Shown one piece after another: positions 1,530 through 43,660 of a DNA stretch of 64,000 bases (positions are counted from its first letter, which is position 1; the number at the start of each line of letters is the position of its first letter). This DNA comes from Alentia gelatinosa (Eukaryota; Annelida; Polychaeta; Phyllodocida; Polynoidae). Under the pieces are notes generated by a model. That model saw only the letters and a list, made by a program, of their open reading frames with translations. It did not search any database and was not told where the DNA came from. The position numbers and the translations under genes were made by a program. The stretch covers positions 25,393,469-25,457,468 of the forward strand of contig OX465584.1 of assembly GCA_950022655.1 (NCBI GenBank), in the 5' to 3' direction.

Positions 1530-2924
1530 ATGGCCGGAAAAAATCACCGTACCAGATCGAAGTCAGTCACAAAACAAACAAAAATGCCAGAACAAGACCC
1601 CCAACAACAAGTAAGTGACGAACCCACGCAGCCGCCACCGCTTCAACACGTGGCGGTAGTTAAAACGCCGACCCTATCGCAGAATGCCACGACCATTCAG
1701 TTGATACAAAAGATAAATGAATTGGAGGTAAGGCTTGACACTCATGATCAAATGATTAACACCTCGATTGATAAGCTAAATACGCTTAGTGAAGGGCTTG
1801 AAAAAAGTGATAAACTTCAAAATACAACTGCAACTCTACTCAAAAGTATTTCTGACAAGCAAGAATCTGACAGGACCGACATAAGTGGGATAAAAGCAAT
1901 TACTGATACTCTAGCAGAGGATATAAGTGATATGAAGCAAATTGCAGATGATACTACCAAGGGTTTCTGTGACGCTGATGAAAGGTTAACAAGGATTGAA
2001 AGCGCAGCACGGCGCAAAATTTTGATTCTTGAAGGGGTAAAAGAAAGCCCAGTTGAACATCTACGTGACCTATTTGATCAGCTACTGAATGACATGGGGT
2101 TGATTGCCACTGAAGTGGCTGTTGACTCTATTTATCGAAGGGGTCGACCCAATCCAAACAGGACACGCTCTATTTGTGTGCACCTAGCCAGCAGTAACGC
2201 CAAGGGTCTGTTATATACAAACGTGAACAAGCTGAGGGGGCAGGATAAATGGAGAAGGGTAACTCTGACTGATGAACTCTCACTAGAAGATAGGCGTAAG
2301 AACCAAGATTTGAATGCTGTTAGGGCTGTTGCAAACAAAAAAGGAGTTAAATGCCAGGTAAAAGGCACGCGTGTAATAATAAATGGAAAACCCTACACAT
2401 ATGAGGAGGCCACTGAACTTCCTCATAACTTGGGCCTGTCACAGATCAAAACTGTTGCAAATGCAAACAGAATCTTTTTCCAAGGCAAACATTCTATGTT
2501 TTCAAATTTGTATCCAATCGAGCTCGTGTACAATGGCAAGCAATTTAACTCAGCTGAGCAATGTTATCAATACACGGCGGCAGTTGCGGAGGGGGAGAAA
2601 GACCTGGCAAGCAAAATCATGAAGACAAGCGACCCTATTGATGCGCTATCATTAGTAAAGCAATCAACGGAGTCTAGATAGTGGGCGGCGACCAAGGTTG
2701 CTGCGATGACCGTCATAGTAACGGCCAAGTTCTCGCAAAGTGAAGAGCTAAAAGCCAAGCTACTGGAGAGTAAGAACAATAACCTGTACGAAGCAACACA
2801 CAACTCCTACTGGGGCTGCAGCTACCACCTGGGTGAGCTGGCTAAATTTGACGCTGATGACTGTAAGCGAAACGAACTGGGCCAAATACTCCAGAGGGTG
2901 AGAACCAAACTGGGAGAGGACTAG
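1530..2924 (+). pseudogene. LINE ORF1: coiled coil + RRM-like + C-terminal domain + NADAR domain, one in-frame TAG
   Basis: Start at ATG 1530 (MAGKNHRTRSK, a basic N-terminus). The frame runs 464 codons and is broken only by TAG at 2679-2681 (codon 384). Residues 56-160 look like a coiled coil (LIQKINELEVRLDTHDQM and on). Residues 162-245 (RRKILILEGVKE through DKWRRVTLTDEL) and 246-300 resemble the RRM and C-terminal domains of L1-type ORF1 proteins, which form trimers and bind element RNA. Residues 314-440 are a NADAR domain: FFQGKHSMFSNLYP, FNSAEQCYQY, then past the stop TAKFSQSEEL, LYEATHNSYWG. NADAR enzymes are known as glycosidases that remove ADP-ribose from guanine in nucleic acid. The sequence past the TAG keeps the family motifs, so the stop is a recent mutation or is read through. 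Confidence 0.82.
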
Positions 2925-2933
2925 TAGGACTTT

Positions 2934-3728
2934 ATGGCAGATAATGGCGGGGAGAAAAGGAATACCCACCCACTATCGCACAACATTATGAAGCAGGAAA
3001 ATGCACTGATACGGACCTGGTCACCCGGACCGAACCATGTGATCATTGGGGACTCGAGAGTAAGGCGACTCTACGAAGCCCTAGCCCTTAACAATACAAA
3101 GGCACAAAGGTTTAACTTATATGCTTTTCCTGGGGCCACACTCAGAGAGTTAATTGTGCTAGCGAATAACCATCTGCTACATCAGTCAAACTCAGTAGTG
3201 TACGTAATGGGAGGCACCTGTGACCTAACAGAAAAAATCTGAGATCCGAGCGATCCAGAAAAACGCATTTTAATCATGCCATGGAAGGATGAATATACAT
3301 TGTGTAAAACCCTAACAAGCTACGCAAGTGCGGGATTTGATTGGCTAGAGGCAAATCACCCACAAGCAAGTTTTGTAATATGTCCCCTGGTTTGTACCTA
3401 CTTACCTGATTGTATCAACATCACGACCAACGAGGATGACGAAGAAACCAAACTACATAAAAAGAGGGAACTTCTGATAAAACAAGATTTAATCACAAAC
3501 GCTGTGCTACAATTTAACAAGAACTTAACTGCTATAAACTCCCGACGAAACACCAACTTCCCATGGCTAGCGAATAACCCGCATAAGTGGAGAAAGGGCA
3601 AGTACAAACACTTCTGGAGTCTACTAAAAGATGGGATTCATCCGACCATGCAGCAGCTGGATCTCTGGGCTAAGGAACTGCTCAAAACCTTCAAACTGAA
3701 CATTCCCATCCCTGTACCGCTGGAATAA
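2934..3728 (+). pseudogene. LINE SGNH-hydrolase ORF, one in-frame TGA
   Basis: ATG at 2934 lies 9 bases after the ORF1 stop codon and in the same frame, so translation could reinitiate. The ORF covers 264 codons and has a single TGA at 3240-3242 (codon 103). Before it come IIGDSRVRR (residues 37-45), which is SGNH block I with the catalytic Ser, and MGGTCDLTEK, which corresponds to the GxND block. After it comes DGIHPT (residues 233-238), the block V Asp/His pair. All catalytic motifs are therefore present on either side of one stop. SGNH esterases in LINE ORF1 regions are known from CR1/L2-type elements, where lipid or membrane binding has been proposed. The function here is inferred. Confidence 0.8.
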
Positions 3729-4374
3729 CTCAGCAAATCACAGAGGCGCCCCGCAAACATAACTAGATAAATGTTTAAACTACCCTGGCTAAGGCATGCT
3801 ATTTATCTGTTGTTACCTATAACGGATAAATGCATTGTTACACCAGTGGTCTTATATGGTAAGGTTAGTCTAATATTATTATTATATATCAACTACTGGC
3901 ACCATGATCTCGATCGCAAACTGTTACCTATGGGATGCGAGCGTGCATGACTCCAGGAGTCGTATTGGGGGAAGGTGGGTGGGATAAACCTATAAATACT
4001 TCTATGTCTAGCCTATGTCAAAACTACTCCCCATACCAACGATTCTATTATTTGGCCAAAAGCCTGCAAAGAATCACAATTAGTTACGAGGTAGCTTATG
4101 CAAGGCTTTAAAGGAGGGTCGGGACAAGCATCCCATAGTACCTGCTCACTAAATGAAATTTTATTTGACTTAATTTTTTTCTGTAACAGAATGAGTGTAA
4201 CGGCTGTAATGGCCGAGGTTACCTTCTTCTCTAAGATGATTGAAATAATTTTTTGTTCATATTGTCAATGGCTACACGTCAAATGTGGTGGAGATTCACT
4301 CAGACATGACCAAATTGTTGCGTTAAGTATGTACATGTGTTCAGCAAAATACGAAAAAATTATGTTTCTAATAT
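3729..4374 (+). other. Spacer between SGNH ORF and EN/RT ORF, with a degenerate PHD-like zinc finger
   Basis: About 650 bases without an intact ORF. At about 4195-4345 a PHD-like pattern is visible across two frames: CNGC in one, then CSYCQWLHVKCGG and a later MYMCS in another. PHD-like fingers directly before the endonuclease occur in some LINE ORFs, so this is probably the frameshifted N-terminus of the following ORF. Confidence 0.5.
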
Positions 4375-7273
4375 ATGTATTCTATGTTCATTGAAGACAC
4401 AGAGGTAGTCAAGAACAAAGGTTGCAAAATGATACATATGAACATACGAAGTCTTAGGTCTGAATTTGAAACATTGCAGATGGAAGCAAAGAAAAATAAA
4501 TGGGATATAATAACAATATCCGAGTCATGGTTGACGGACAACGACGCTGATTCTTCTTATCAGTTATATGGTTATGCTAGATCAAGGGTGGATCGAAAAT
4601 GGAAAAATAATATAAATGACTTAAAACCAAAAATTGGTGGTGGACTATGTGTTTACTTTAAAAGCGATTTAAAATGTGATACCTCAACCCTATCGCATCT
4701 GAATACCAGTACGAAGGATATCGAAATACAGGTTATAGAATTAACTAATAATAATAATAAAAAAATAGCTCTTTGTAACATATATAGGCCCAATGATGGG
4801 AGTATTGACATATTTATCCAATGCTTAACAGATATTACACAAGAAGTGAACAACATTGTGATGCATGAGATCATACTCATGGGAGATTTTAACATAAATG
4901 TGACTGACCCTAATGAACTAAATGCAGATAAGTTAATTATAGAAATGCTCTTAAATGGGCTACAACAACAAATCAAAAGTCCAACGAGATTATCCAAAAA
5001 TAGCTCCATTATAGACTTAATATTCACAGAGGATGCAAGTAACAATAAAGCGGGCGTCTTGTCGACTGCTATTAGTGACCATCAACTAATATTTCTAATT
5101 ACTAATAAACTGAAGAAAATACCTAAGAAAAAGATTGAATTTTATGGTAGATCATATATAAAATATAGTAAAGCTGATCTAGCTGAATACCTAACACAAC
5201 TAAATTGGGATAGCTATTTTGATATGGCCTCACCGGAAGATAAATGGAATGAAATACTAAAAACCATAAATACCTTTTTGGACATAAATTGTGGATATCG
5301 TAAATTCAAGATTAGAGCTAATAACGAACCCTGGATGTCAAATCAGCTTTACGAGCTAATCAGAGATAAAAATATGTTATGGGCAAAGGCTAAAAGGGTT
5401 AATACACAAGCAATCAGGGACAAGGCCCGCAAAGCACGGAATCATGTCATTAATATGGTTAAACAAGCCAGACAACTGTACACTATGAATGAGCTGGATA
5501 GAAATTGTAATAATCCCAAACAGTTCTGGGGAAAAATAAATAACATCTTACCTGGAACGGAAAATAAGTCAAGCACACCTATTCAATTAAAGGATGACTC
5601 AAAAAACGTAATAAATGTAGATGAAACAGCCTCATATATTAATACCTTTTTTAATGAGATAGGAGAGAAGTTGGCCAAAAATATGCATATATGCCATGGA
5701 TGTCTTACCAGGAACAAATCTAGAAACACTACCAGATATGGTTGTTGAAGCTTCTGAGGTGTTAAAGGTGGCAAAAGATCTGAAAATACATAAACAGTCA
5801 ATGTTAGAAGGTATTCCCTCATATATCTTCAGAGACTGCTTACTATTAGTCCCCCATGTTTTTGTGGAGTTGTAAAACTGTACTTTTAGCTCTACCACAA
5901 TACCAAAAAGTTGGAAACTGTCGATCGTTGTCCCAATTCCGAAAGGGGGAGATCCCTATGATGTCTTGAACCTAAGACCTATTGCACTGTTACCAATAAT
6001 TTCAAAGGTAATGGAAAAGATTGTACATGCCAAATTGTATACCTTCTTATGTGACAACGAAAGACTTGATTTTTGTCAATATGGTTATCGTAAGGGACTG
6101 TCAACCGTTGATGCGGTTTCGAATTTTACTGATGATGTATTGTTGGGAAAAAATGTAGGACAGGACACTGTGGCGGTGTACATAGACTTTAAGAAAGCCT
6201 TTGACACTGTGAACCACAGAATTCTACTAAAAAAGCTGGAATTAAATTGGGTCAAAGGTGTAAATTTGGCCTGGTTTAACAATTATCTAAGTGGGAGGGG
6301 ACAGATGGTTATAGTTAATAATTGTCTTTTGGCAGATAAATCTGTGGTTCACGGTGTCCCACAGGGGTCCATTCTCGGACCGCTGATGTTTATAATTTAT
6401 GCGAACGACTTATCAAAGGTTGCCAAAAAATCGAAGGTTGTACTCTACGCCGATGACACGGTTGTATATATTCAAGGTAAACTAAATAGAGCTTTATATA
6501 AAAATTTGCAGGATGACCTAGACAAAATCCACATATGGTGTACTCAAAATAAATTGTCGGTCAATATAAAAAAGACGAAACATATGGTATTTTCCTCAAG
6601 AAAGAGAAACAACTGCTATAAAGACACTCTTAAAATGAACAACGACATATTATCTGAGGTTATTTCTTATAAATATCTTGGTATTATTCTAGATACAAGG
6701 TTGGATTATCATTTTCATTTCTCCAATATTGTGAAAAATGTATGTTATAAACTATACCAACTAGGAAAAATGAGATCATATATATCGAAAAATGCTGCTG
6801 TTAGAATATATAAAACCGTCATCTTACCCTATATGGATTACGGGGACATTATCTATGGAACTAGTCTAGGAAAATATTTAGGAAAATTAAAAAAGCTCCA
6901 AAATTGGGCGCTTCGTATTTGTTTTAAGCAACCGCGACATACCCCGACTATTAACATGCATAAGAACGCAAATATAACCCAGTTAGAAGATAGAAGAGCC
7001 TCCCATGTTCTCAATTACATGTACAAAAGGCGTAGAACCAAACGTTATCTGAATGATAGAGTAAACTCTACAAGAAAGTTTGATGCTCCTGTTCTGTTCA
7101 GAAACAAACCAAACTGTTCAAGTTACATGAAATCTGTACACTACTACGGTAGTAATCTTTGGAATAGCCAGACATCTCAAATTAGGAATACGGAAACGTA
7201 TGCCATGGACAAATCCCTCACCAAAAGAAGAATATTGCAAAATCTACTTGAAACACCATATAAGGAGGTTTAA
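4375..7273 (+). pseudogene. LINE endonuclease/reverse transcriptase ORF, one frameshift and one TAA
   Basis: Frame 1 (4375-5690) encodes an exonuclease-endonuclease-phosphatase domain with MNIRSL (Asn 23), SESWL (Glu 50), IYRPN (Tyr 137), GDFNIN (Asp 171, Asn 173) and SDHQ (234-237), so every catalytic block is present. The frame shifts near 5685-5695. The second frame runs from about 5696 through TAA at 5873-5875 to 7273. It carries the reverse transcriptase: VPIPKGGD and LRPIALLPIISKVMEKI, DFKKAFDTVNH, GVPQGSILGP and LYADDTVVY (YADD at about 6443-6454). The C-terminal part has the usual LINE extension (KYLGIILDTRLDYH, LPYMDYGDIIYG). No RNase H domain is visible. A CR1/jockey-type placement is likely from the motifs, but the clade needs a tree. 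Confidence 0.88.
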
Positions 7274-7539: not shown

Positions 7540-7601
7540 AGACTATTCCTCAATTACTTCAATATGCATATATGCATATTGAAGTAATTGAGGAATAGTC
7601 T
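7540..7601. repeat. Perfect 62-bp palindrome
   Basis: Two 31-base arms without a spacer, centred between 7570 and 7571. The left arm begins AGACTATTCCTC and the right arm ends GAGGAATAGTCT. It lies about 270 bases after the LINE RT stop codon. Confidence 0.97.
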
Positions 7602-24623: not shown

Positions 24624-25418
24624 TTATTGTAGAGGTTTTTGTGCAGCCACTGTACAGGAAGCAGCAGGTGTACAAGAAACAGCAGGTGTACATGAAGAAG
24701 CCGGTGTACACAAAGCAGCAGGTGTAGAGGAAATAGCAGATGTACACGAAGAAGCCGGTGTACAAGAAACAGCCGGTGTACACAAAGAAGCCGTTCTGCA
24801 GGAAGCAGCAGGTTTACAATAAGCAGCAGGTGTATAGGAAGAGGCTGGGGTACAGGAAGCATCAGATGTACAAGAAGAAGCCAGTGTACAGGAAGAAGCA
24901 GGTGTACAGGAAGCACTCTTCTTCCACTTCCTGGTGCGTGCCAGGTCTGCCAGGTGCGGCAACAGGAACTGAAACTGATCCCAGATCCATTTGTCCCGAG
25001 GCTTCAAATTGTCTGCACCACAGCCCCAGATGCCCTGAACCAGACGAATTTGGTAGAGTCGTATCCACATACTGAGGTGCCAAGTCCGTATTTTCCCAGC
25101 AGGCCTGCCGATGCATTTTGCCTGCTGTTCCCACAGCAGGTCTTTGTGGTCGGTGTACCGGAATGCAGTGGACTGCTTGGCATATAGTTCAGGATTATGT
25201 CGAAGGAAGATGATTATTTCCTCCTTCTGTTGGTCATTAAATTTGGTGACAGCCCTGTGAAACTGGCAATGTCCGCTGCCATCAGGAGTAGAAGGTGCAG
25301 GGTCGGTATTGGCTCCTTGATCACCAGCAGCATTCTCTGGGGTGTGTGGAACAGCATCTGGTGCATCTGGTGTTGCGTTTGGTTGGGCAGGCTTGCCAGC
25401 AGGCATGTCAGCAGGCAT
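24624..25418 (-). CDS. MADF-domain protein with C-terminal cysteine hexapeptide repeats, 264 aa
   Basis: The ATG at 25418 is the first in frame after an upstream stop. Residues 1-55 are Pro/Ala-rich. Residues 62-155 fit a MADF (Adf-1-like) DNA-binding domain: EEIIIFLRHNPELYA, DHKDLLWEQQAKCIG, a Trp-rich middle (WHLSMWIRLYQIRL) and the end KWIWDQFQFLLPHL. A basic bridge RTRKWKK follows, then about 15 copies of a six-residue unit of type SCTPAS (residues 169-258), most with one Cys. Encoded by an 18-base minisatellite, the repeat has no stop in several frames on both strands. Proteins with MADF domains bind DNA in insects and are paired with Harbinger-type transposases elsewhere. The Cys repeat is unlike any domain I know. 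It could be a transposon accessory protein or a captured gene. Confidence 0.68.
   Translation of the reverse strand: MPADMPAGKPAQPNATPDAPDAVPHTPENAAGDQGANTDPAPSTPDGSGHCQFHRAVTKFNDQQKEEIIIFLRHNPELYAKQSTAFRYTDHKDLLWEQQAKCIGRPAGKIRTWHLSMWIRLYQIRLVQGIWGCGADNLKPRDKWIWDQFQFLLPHLADLARTRKWKKSASCTPASSCTLASSCTSDASCTPASSYTPAAYCKPAASCRTASLCTPAVSCTPASSCTSAISSTPAALCTPASSCTPAVSCTPAASCTVAAQKPLQ
24645..24914 (-). repeat. 18-bp minisatellite encoding SCTPAS-type repeats
   Basis: About 15 diverged units of 18 bases, on + of the form GTGTACAGGAAGCAGCAG. Because the unit is a multiple of three, each frame gives a six-residue repeat. The MADF-linked frame on the minus strand is the one attached to a recognisable domain. 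Confidence 0.85.
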
Positions 25419-42059: not shown

Positions 42060-43660
42060 ACTGGCCCTCAAGGAAATTGTCCCTCAACCTTACTGCTCCT
42101 TCACAATACTACCCCTGAATCAAATTACATCAAACCATACTGCCCCTCACTACACTGTCCTGAAGCTATACTGCCCTTGACCATACTGCCCCTCAAACAT
42201 ACTTTCATTCAACCATACTGCTCCTAACTATACTGCCTCTCACCCATACCACCCCTTCACCATGCTGCTCCTCACTATACTGTCCCTTAACCATACTATC
42301 CCTTAACCATACTGGCCCTCACCAGAAATGCTCCTGAATCATATTGCCCCTCCACAACCCAGCCCCTCTACCATACTTCCCCATAACGATACTGCTCCTA
42401 AATGACATTGTCCCTCAACAATACTGCCCCTTAACCATACTGCCCCTCCACCATACTGCCCTTAAACCATACTGCCCCTCACCATAGTACCCCTCCACCA
42501 TACTGCCCTTCAACTATACTGCCCCTAAATCACATGGTCCCTCATCATAGTAACACTATGAGGGCCAGTATAGTTTGGGTCAGTATAGTTGAGGGGCAGT
42601 AATGTGAAGGCCAGTATGGTTTAGGGCCAGTATGGTTCAGGGCAGTGAGGTTGAGGGGCAGTATGATTTAAGGGCAGTATGGATTAAGGACAGTATGGTT
42701 GAGAGACATTATGGTAGAGGAGCAGTATGGATAATGGGCTGTATGGTTGAGAGGCAGTATGGTAGAGAAGCAGTAGGGATTAAGGGCAGTATGATTGAGA
42801 GGCAGTATGGTAGAGGAGTAGTATAGTGTAAGGGCAGTAAGGTTGAGAGGAAGTATTGCTGAGGGACAATATAGTGGTTGAGGGAAAGTATGGGTAAGGT
42901 ATCGGTATAGTGATGGAACAGTAGGGTAAAGGGGCAGTATGGTGGAGGGACAGCATTGTAGAGGGGCAGTATGGCGGAGGGGCAGTATAGTAGAAGGGCA
43001 GTATGGTGGAGGGGCAGTAGGTTCAGGGGCAGTATGGTGGAGGGCAGTATGGTGGAGGGACAGTATAGTAGAGGGGCAGTAGGGTTGTGGGGTAGTATGG
43101 TAGAGGGACGGTATAGCAAAGGGGCAGTATGGTAGAGGGGCAGTATGGTAGAGGGGCAGTATGGTAGAAGGACAGTATGGTGGAGGGGTAGTATTGCAGA
43201 AGGGTAGTATTGCAGAAGGGCAGTATGGTAGAGGGGCAGTATGTTGGAAGGACAGTATGGTGGAGGGGCAGTATGGTGCAGGGACAGTATGGTGGAGGAC
43301 CAGTATGGTGGAGGGACAGTATAGTAGATCGGCAGTATGGTAGAGGGGCAGCATGGTAGAGGGGCAATATGGTAGAGGGACAGTATGGTGGAGGGGCAGT
43401 ATGATAGAGGGACAGTATATTAGAGGAACAGTATGATGGAGTGGCAGTAAGTGGAGGGGCAGTATGGTTGAGGGGCAGTATGGTTGAGGGGAAGTATGGT
43501 CGACGGGCAGTATGGTCGAGGGGCAATATGATTCAGGAGCAATTTTGGTGAGGGGCAGTATGGTTAAGGGGCAGTCCTGTTGATGGGCAAAAGTGTAGTT
43601 GAGGGAATGTATAGGTGAGGGTTGAGGAGCAGTATGGTTGTGGGACTGTTGTTAGATTGG
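42060..43660. repeat. Two 17-bp minisatellite arrays head to head
   Basis: 42060-42545 repeats units of type ACCATACTGCCCCTCA. 42555-43660 repeats the reverse complement, GGGGCAGTATGGTAGAG, in about 60 diverged copies. The centre near 42550 is a small palindrome (CATAGTAACACTATG). The 17-base unit is not a multiple of three, so open frames on either strand show a 17-residue period (for example YCPSTILPLYHTAPLP). I regard these as translation of repeat, not genes. Confidence 0.9.

Follow-up and report, generated by a model that had tools for sequence, protein, structure and literature searches.

What is a NADAR domain doing at the end of the first protein of a retrotransposon, and does it belong to the element at all? 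NADARs are enzymes described as reversing the ADP-ribosylation of guanosine in RNA and DNA (PMC11833690, PMC11543638), and the window analyzed here (the whole 64,000-nucleotide stretch of Alentia gelatinosa DNA) carries on its forward strand a decayed LINE in which such a domain closes ORF1, followed in order by an esterase-like ORF, an endonuclease (EN), and a reverse transcriptase (RT). A first-pass annotation had read the ORF1 product as a coiled coil, an RRM-like domain, an L1-type C-terminal domain (CTD), and a NADAR that could clear ADP-ribose from the RNA or cDNA of the element.

ORF1 occupies positions 1530 to 2924 (+ strand; 464 codons plus the final stop, with one in-frame TAG), and the NADAR makes up about its last 145 residues. 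From the N terminus, the protein consists of a coiled-coil helix (residues ~49 to 161, positions 1674 to 2012, +, predicted as long helices at low confidence), an RRM-like domain and CTD of the L1 ORF1p type (residues ~164 to 308, positions 2019 to 2453, +, assigned with Foldseek and similar in the related proteins P0002 and P0003 described below), and the NADAR itself (PF08719; residues 320 to 461, positions 2487 to 2912, +, with the profile match running over 2454 to 2921), which is recognized by profile and by its relationship to the structures 8bau and 2b3w. The TAG (2679 to 2681, +) breaks the NADAR of this copy. Downstream lies an SGNH-esterase-like ORF (2943 to 3728, +) with GDS and DGxH motifs and a TGA break at 3240 to 3242, for which there was no Pfam match and no esterase profile match. 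ORF2 follows as an EN part (4372 to 5748, +; PF14529, E = 2.1e-11) and an RT part (5876 to 7273, +; PF00078, E = 7.7e-35), its frame broken between the two, and 5' of ORF2 is a possible but weak PHD-finger remnant (4095 to 4391, +; PF00628, E = 0.15, below the cut-off). The window copy cannot act because of the stop in the NADAR, the stop in the esterase ORF, and the frame break in ORF2; it is dead.

The surroundings of the element hold further features of their own. A perfect palindrome (a 61-base exact self reverse-complement match) lies at 7540 to 7601, just 3' of the RT; an 18-base tandem repeat with 13 registered copies spans 24633 to 24938; and over 42274 to 43590 a 16-base unit is repeated in long arrays that have numerous inverted partners. 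On the other side, a 447-amino-acid (aa) frame that is open at the window edge (1 to 1344, +) ends just 5' of the LINE. This frame encodes a PARP catalytic domain (PF00644, E = 2.2e-10) and includes, at 842 to 1033, a 96-base tandem duplication that is 99% identical. That a gene of the ADP-ribosyltransferase (PARP) type adjoins a NADAR element is probably coincidence.

The identity of the terminal domain is firm. With the TAG read as Q, window ORF1 matches PF08719 at 87.4 bits (E = 1.6e-24; curated cut-off, 35.1 bits); taken alone, the piece after the TAG is above the cut-off (49.5 bits, E = 7.7e-13) and the piece before it is below (23.3 bits, E = 8.4e-5). The NCBIfam model TIGR02464, searched with the stop as X, gives 81.6 bits versus a cut-off of 73.7. 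Among solved structures, those closest in sequence are the Phytophthora NADAR 8bau (E = 1.1e-9) and Escherichia coli YbiA (2b3w, E = 1.2e-5), and the mark of the YbiA subfamily, a Glu in the E125 position instead of Asp or His, is present in the window as E421. The five blocks on which the first-pass annotation had based its call (FSNLYP, SAEQCYQ, AKFSQ, LYEAT, and YWG) all occur in window ORF1, and the profile search that it had put forward as a check, with the stop read through, yields a significant match, so that its placing of a NADAR at the end of ORF1 is borne out by both profile models and by the 8bau and YbiA relatives.

For the remainder of ORF1, a search with Pfam Transposase_22 gave no match at E ≤ 1. 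The structural model of window ORF1 was built from three sequences and is weak (mean pLDDT, 59; pTM, 0.34); all nine of its PDB matches in Foldseek at E ≤ 0.001 are human LINE-1 ORF1p (1.1e-5 to 1.2e-4), and no NADAR appears among the 50 structure matches listed. The P0002 model, also of low confidence (pLDDT 62), has as its top PDB matches 8bau (1.1e-4) and then YbiA 2b3w (1.3e-3), with the LINE-1 RRM-CTD in fourth place at a nonsignificant 0.33. Between them, the two models support, at low confidence, each of the predicted coiled coil, RRM, CTD, and NADAR folds, and the coiled coil-RRM-CTD reading of the first-pass annotation agrees with the LINE-1 ORF1p matches of the low-confidence window model.

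Whether the fusion is an accident of this one copy can be judged from its relatives in the same genome. Searched with P0002, the 1.23-Gb genome of the window returned 3279 first-look candidates, and all of the best 130, which were scored, span both the ORF1 core and the NADAR at E < 1e-40; a PF08719 query returned 3137 candidates, the best 150 of which were scored and are all above the cut-off (these candidate counts are not copy numbers). From the best 130 of the 3279, we fetched 20 copies of 10 kb, with preference for stop-free matches. Downstream of ORF1-NADAR, these contain the esterase in 20 of 20 (by tblastn), EN in 19 of 20, and RT in 18 of 20, in one common order and with similar spacing. 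Seven of the 20 are fully open, with minimum stop-to-stop lengths of 435 aa for ORF1, 230 aa for the esterase ORF, and 956 aa for ORF2, and in these ORF1 measures 435 to 493 aa and ORF2 is a single frame of 956 to 981 aa. In a three-frame pattern scan, the esterase regions of 19 copies show a GDS-like pattern and those of 18 show DGxH, motifs that agree with the S/D/H triad described for the zebrafish L2 esterase (PMC3905857). The window element belongs to a large, very diverse LINE family with three ORFs, whose RT has motifs that tentatively place it with the CR1/L2/Jockey kind.

The NADAR accompanies the other parts of the element when these are used as the starting point. An RT query from one member gave 32876 candidates, and 92 matches were compared against 96 ORF1-NADAR places plus 28 of the best 130 from the P0002 query: 25 of the 92 have a listed ORF1-NADAR upstream and in the same orientation (in 23 cases at a distance of 2.6 to 3.0 kb from the RT), and the controls gave 0 downstream and 0 on the opposite strand. 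The other 67 have no ORF1-NADAR among the matches listed, incomplete listing and 5' truncation both being possible causes. A query with the ORF1 core only gave 2309 candidates, the best 150 of which were scored and compared against 96 NADAR-including places plus 22 of the best 130; 107 of the 150 (and 73 of the top 75) have a NADAR-including match no more than 1.5 kb away, and 43 are unmatched. Inspection of six of these 43 revealed a NADAR in five, whole in L055 and L056 and frame-shifted or cut in L057, L058, and L060; in the sixth, L059 (G000:C15:29070400-29071100), the family ORF1 core passes into unrelated sequence exactly at the NADAR border, which could reflect an insertion, a truncation, or a variant that has no NADAR. 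Genomic copies lacking the domain were what the first-pass annotation had named as the sign of a chance neighbor, and, because core-only matches mostly carry a NADAR nearby, this check did not overturn its claim. The NADAR fusion is a real and regular trait of this LINE family.

It is also a trait that has been maintained. NADAR identity among 30 genomic copies ranges from 28 to 99% (median, 40%), and most NADAR pairs are close to saturation at synonymous sites; we used pN versus pS because dS is saturated outside three close pairs. pN is lower than pS in 435 of 435 NADAR pairs and in 434 of 435 pairs of the ORF1 core, which, with synonymous sites near saturation, implies that the NADAR was kept while the family diversified. 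In the three close pairs, dN/dS is 0.18, 0.34, and 0.45 for the NADAR and, in the same pairs, 1.20, 0.71, and 0.89 for the ORF1 core. By these substitution patterns, the NADAR of the family is under purifying selection. NADAR and RT distances are correlated (r = 0.868; 0 of 2000 permutations as high) across 15 elements with RT identities of 37 to 99% (16 RTs were extracted from 21 elements, and one more was dropped because it had no NADAR row), a pattern indicating that the NADAR has traveled together with the RT. That the domain is a chance neighbor, i.e., a NADAR pseudogene adjoining the LINE or read through by it, would suit the window copy with its stop inside the NADAR, but the in-frame fusion in many diverged copies and the co-divergence with RT have already refuted this idea, and we give it practically no weight. 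The NADAR is almost certainly a selected structural part of the element.

Two proteins from sources other than the window genome show the same ORF1-NADAR fusion: P0002, which has 304 aa and lies on a 384-kb contig, and P0003, which has 475 aa and occurs on three contigs. They are 36% and 29% identical, respectively, to window ORF1 over RRM/CTD and NADAR jointly. P0002 was found with the NADAR part of the whole protein as query and P0003 with a two-row alignment; a protein search with the full window ORF1 (X at the stop) gave no match. We found no relative among the GTDB contigs and no relative of P0002, P0003, or the RT in IMG/VR, where an alignment query returned one stand-alone NADAR, L001, amid genes that look phage-like by eye.

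Within the window genome, two further LINE types carry a NADAR on ORF1. In L044 (G000:C7:34359500-34366500), an ORF1 ending in NADAR (E = 2.9e-32) is followed by EN and RT; this RT has the motif GTRQGCCLSP, by which its clade is presumably Tx1/L1-like. L043 (G000:C7:38806500-38812500) has a long ORF1, a linker, a NADAR (E = 4.3e-33), then a separate ORF that by eye resembles an esterase, and an RT that has the motif GVPQGSILGP and is, by its motifs, presumably CR1/L2-like. In identity, the window RT is closer to the RT of L043 (36%) than to that of L044 (23%), and with GVPQGSILGP versus GTRQGCCLSP it does not appear to be of the Tx1 type. Together with the 20 fetched copies and the window (two of which have no RT match), L043 and L044 are the NADARs seen in LINE context, in each case on an RNA-binding type of protein.

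The genome also contains a canonical stand-alone NADAR gene, L042 (G000:C11:13148800-13150300; E = 8.8e-53), which among the rows compared is closest to a Bacillus plasmid NADAR (57% identity). In the NADAR tree, L042 and four bacterial NADARs are split with 100/99 support from all other rows, namely the LINE-family NADARs, L043, L044, six more NADARs with context unread, P0002, P0003, and L001 (L020, L028, and L034, whose C ends are frame-shifted or truncated, were left out). L001, the sole viral row, sits on a long branch, and long branches also separate the LINE types. Descent of the LINE NADARs from the host stand-alone NADAR is not favored, since the 100/99 branch separates L042 from them. 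Elsewhere in the genome, L047 (G000:C5:15169791-15170351) is a NADAR within a 1040-aa open frame.

What the domain does is a separate question, on which the active-site residues, mapped on 8bau and counted over 32 aligned ORF1s (window included), bear most directly. The equivalent of E43, a contact of the distal ribose, is E in 32 of 32 (window E343, 2556 to 2558, +); that of E125, the YbiA-type catalytic Glu, is E in 30 of 32 (window E421, 2790 to 2792, +), with K in this place in P0003 and L015 and, among five further copies, in L056; and that of W133 is W in 31 of 32 (window W428, 2811 to 2813, +), with Y in P0002 and, among the further copies, F in L055 and L056. The D130 place is occupied 22 times by D, seven times by N, and three times by E among the 32 (window N425). 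The phosphate-coordinating K50 is K in just 7 of 32 and is replaced in 25, by A350 in the window (2577 to 2579, +) and by N in P0002, and the five further copies (L055, L056, L057, L058, and L060) are also without it. P0003, with K50 kept and Lys at the E125 place, has in addition a low-complexity C-terminal tail. In a joint alignment of the tree set, only 5 of the 27 family members keep K50, the other 22 having another residue in its place. It is kept in L043 and L044, as in all nine other NADARs (eight of the window genome, with LINE context seen for L043 and L044 only, plus P0003), and likewise in all five from the host or bacteria and in the single viral NADAR. Loss of K50 is a trait of the window family and P0002, because all other NADARs aligned keep it. 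According to PMC11543638, the source of the residue roles, the E43 and K50 equivalents are largely conserved across the NADAR superfamily, and in the E. coli C7 NADAR the counterpart of K50, K95, is needed for efficient hydrolysis and for rescue, a K95R variant being active in vitro without rescue.

Our best explanation, to which as a whole we assign a probability of roughly 45%, is that a selected NADAR tail hydrolyzes a guanine adduct at the LINE ribonucleoprotein (RNP). We infer that ORF1p would bind the RNA of the element as an L1-like trimer, and that this binding would hold the NADAR within the RNP, where it would hydrolyze an N-glycosidic ADP-ribose (or related ribosyl) adduct on guanine of the element RNA or nascent cDNA and in this way protect the element against host or foreign ADP-ribosyltransferases. 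The NADAR is somewhat more likely than not to be enzymatically active in the family, and removal of guanine ADP-ribose by it is plausible; the naming of guanine-ADP-ribose on the element's own nucleic acid as its substrate is tentative, and we put it at a little short of even odds. To our knowledge, ADP-ribosylation of LINE RNA or DNA has not been reported. Guanine-specific transferases are described from butterflies and shellfish (pierisins and CARP-1; PMC11543638), and every NADAR tested in vitro, YbiA included, is reported to reverse ADP-ribosylation of guanosine in RNA (PMC11833690).

The K50 loss speaks against simple guanine-ADP-ribose hydrolysis, because K95 is needed in the E. coli C7 NADAR, and it may leave room for a changed substrate. 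The family NADAR could have ceased to be a guanine-ADP-ribose hydrolase and act instead on another ribosylated substrate, or serve as a binding or oligomerizing module on the RNP. Besides the replacement of K50 in 22 of the 27 family members and its retention in 9/9, 5/5, and 1/1 of the other NADARs, such a change of activity is in keeping with the action of YbiA-type NADARs on riboflavin intermediates and with the use of NADAR domains in an RNA-protein machine by Caenorhabditis elegans SNA-3 (PMC9303266). A mere scaffold, however, would need none of E43, E125, and W133, which persist at 32/32, 30/32, and 31/32 despite NADAR identity down to 28%, and we regard a changed activity as a serious contender that is nonetheless somewhat unlikely. 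The domain could, alternatively, work in trans, with ORF1p destroying a small ADP-ribose-derived host signal or altering a host protein modification so that the element is tolerated, much as has been proposed for phage NADARs (PMC9503650). Against this stand the position of the NADAR on the element's own RNA-binding protein in 112 of the 113 core matches checked (107 by list and five of six by sequence, of 150 scored) and the argument, made in the same source, that in animal RNA viruses the NADARs are directed at macromolecules; we find action in trans improbable. The presence of the domain on the RNA-binding protein of the element favors a job at the RNP.

A broader conjecture, which we consider unlikely, is that the group to which the host belongs restricts retrotransposons by ADP-ribosylation of nucleic acids, that a NADAR on the ORF1 of at least two RT clades is a cis-acting antidote, spread among them with a common ORF1 or captured independently, and that the window family has re-tuned it, dropping the phosphate-binding lysine. 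Clam CARP-1 is a guanine ADP-ribosyltransferase known from shellfish. If active, the ORF1 NADARs would be the first hint known to us of retrotransposons meeting and undoing ADP-ribosylation of their RNA or cDNA; they make the role of eukaryotic NADARs a directly testable question, and the natural loss of K50 provides a variant series for dissecting substrate choice.

The novelty implied by the first-pass annotation was overstated: the ORF1-NADAR fusion is not new, because several Tx1 LINE ORF1 proteins of the oyster Crassostrea gigas (from Repbase) are already described in print as apparently holding YbiA-family NADARs, and the same is said there of Pol in one Gypsy lineage of Ectocarpus (PMC12477816, 2025). 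That source treats the LINEs in one sentence and gives neither copy numbers nor an analysis of selection or residues, and our literature search on NADAR/YbiA/DUF1768 together with LINEs or transposable elements found in print no non-Tx1 family, nor its range, diversity, evolution, selection, or K50 loss. The oyster elements resemble the window family in having a YbiA-kind NADAR on an animal LINE ORF1, with processing of an RNA intermediate as the suggested role (PMC12477816). The window family differs from them in its separate esterase ORF and in its RT, which in two members is 23 to 27% identical to the Tx1/L1-like RT of L044; the window and 11 of the 20 copies have the GVPQGSILGP motif, by which the family is also unlike L044, and the motif was not found in the other nine copies (two of these without an RT match).

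Other known systems share parts of this arrangement. The type II ORF1 of L2/CR1 lineages, as described in PMC4120745, has the coiled coil, RRM, and CTD of human L1 ORF1p, as does window ORF1, whereas the esterase of those lineages sits in a different, type IV ORF1; the terms NADAR and DUF1768 occur 0 times in the main text of that paper on CR1/L2/Jockey-group ORF1s. DarT1-NADAR toxin-antitoxin systems and YbiA/YarT (PMC11543638, PMC11125620) have the same fold as the family NADAR, which keeps the E43 and E125 equivalents but, unlike them, is fused to a LINE RNA-binding protein and has mostly lost K50. A further parallel comes from invertebrate RNA viruses whose polyproteins include a NADAR (PMC9503650), in that there too a mobile element carries its own NADAR beside its replication proteins, the element in our case being a retrotransposon instead of a virus.
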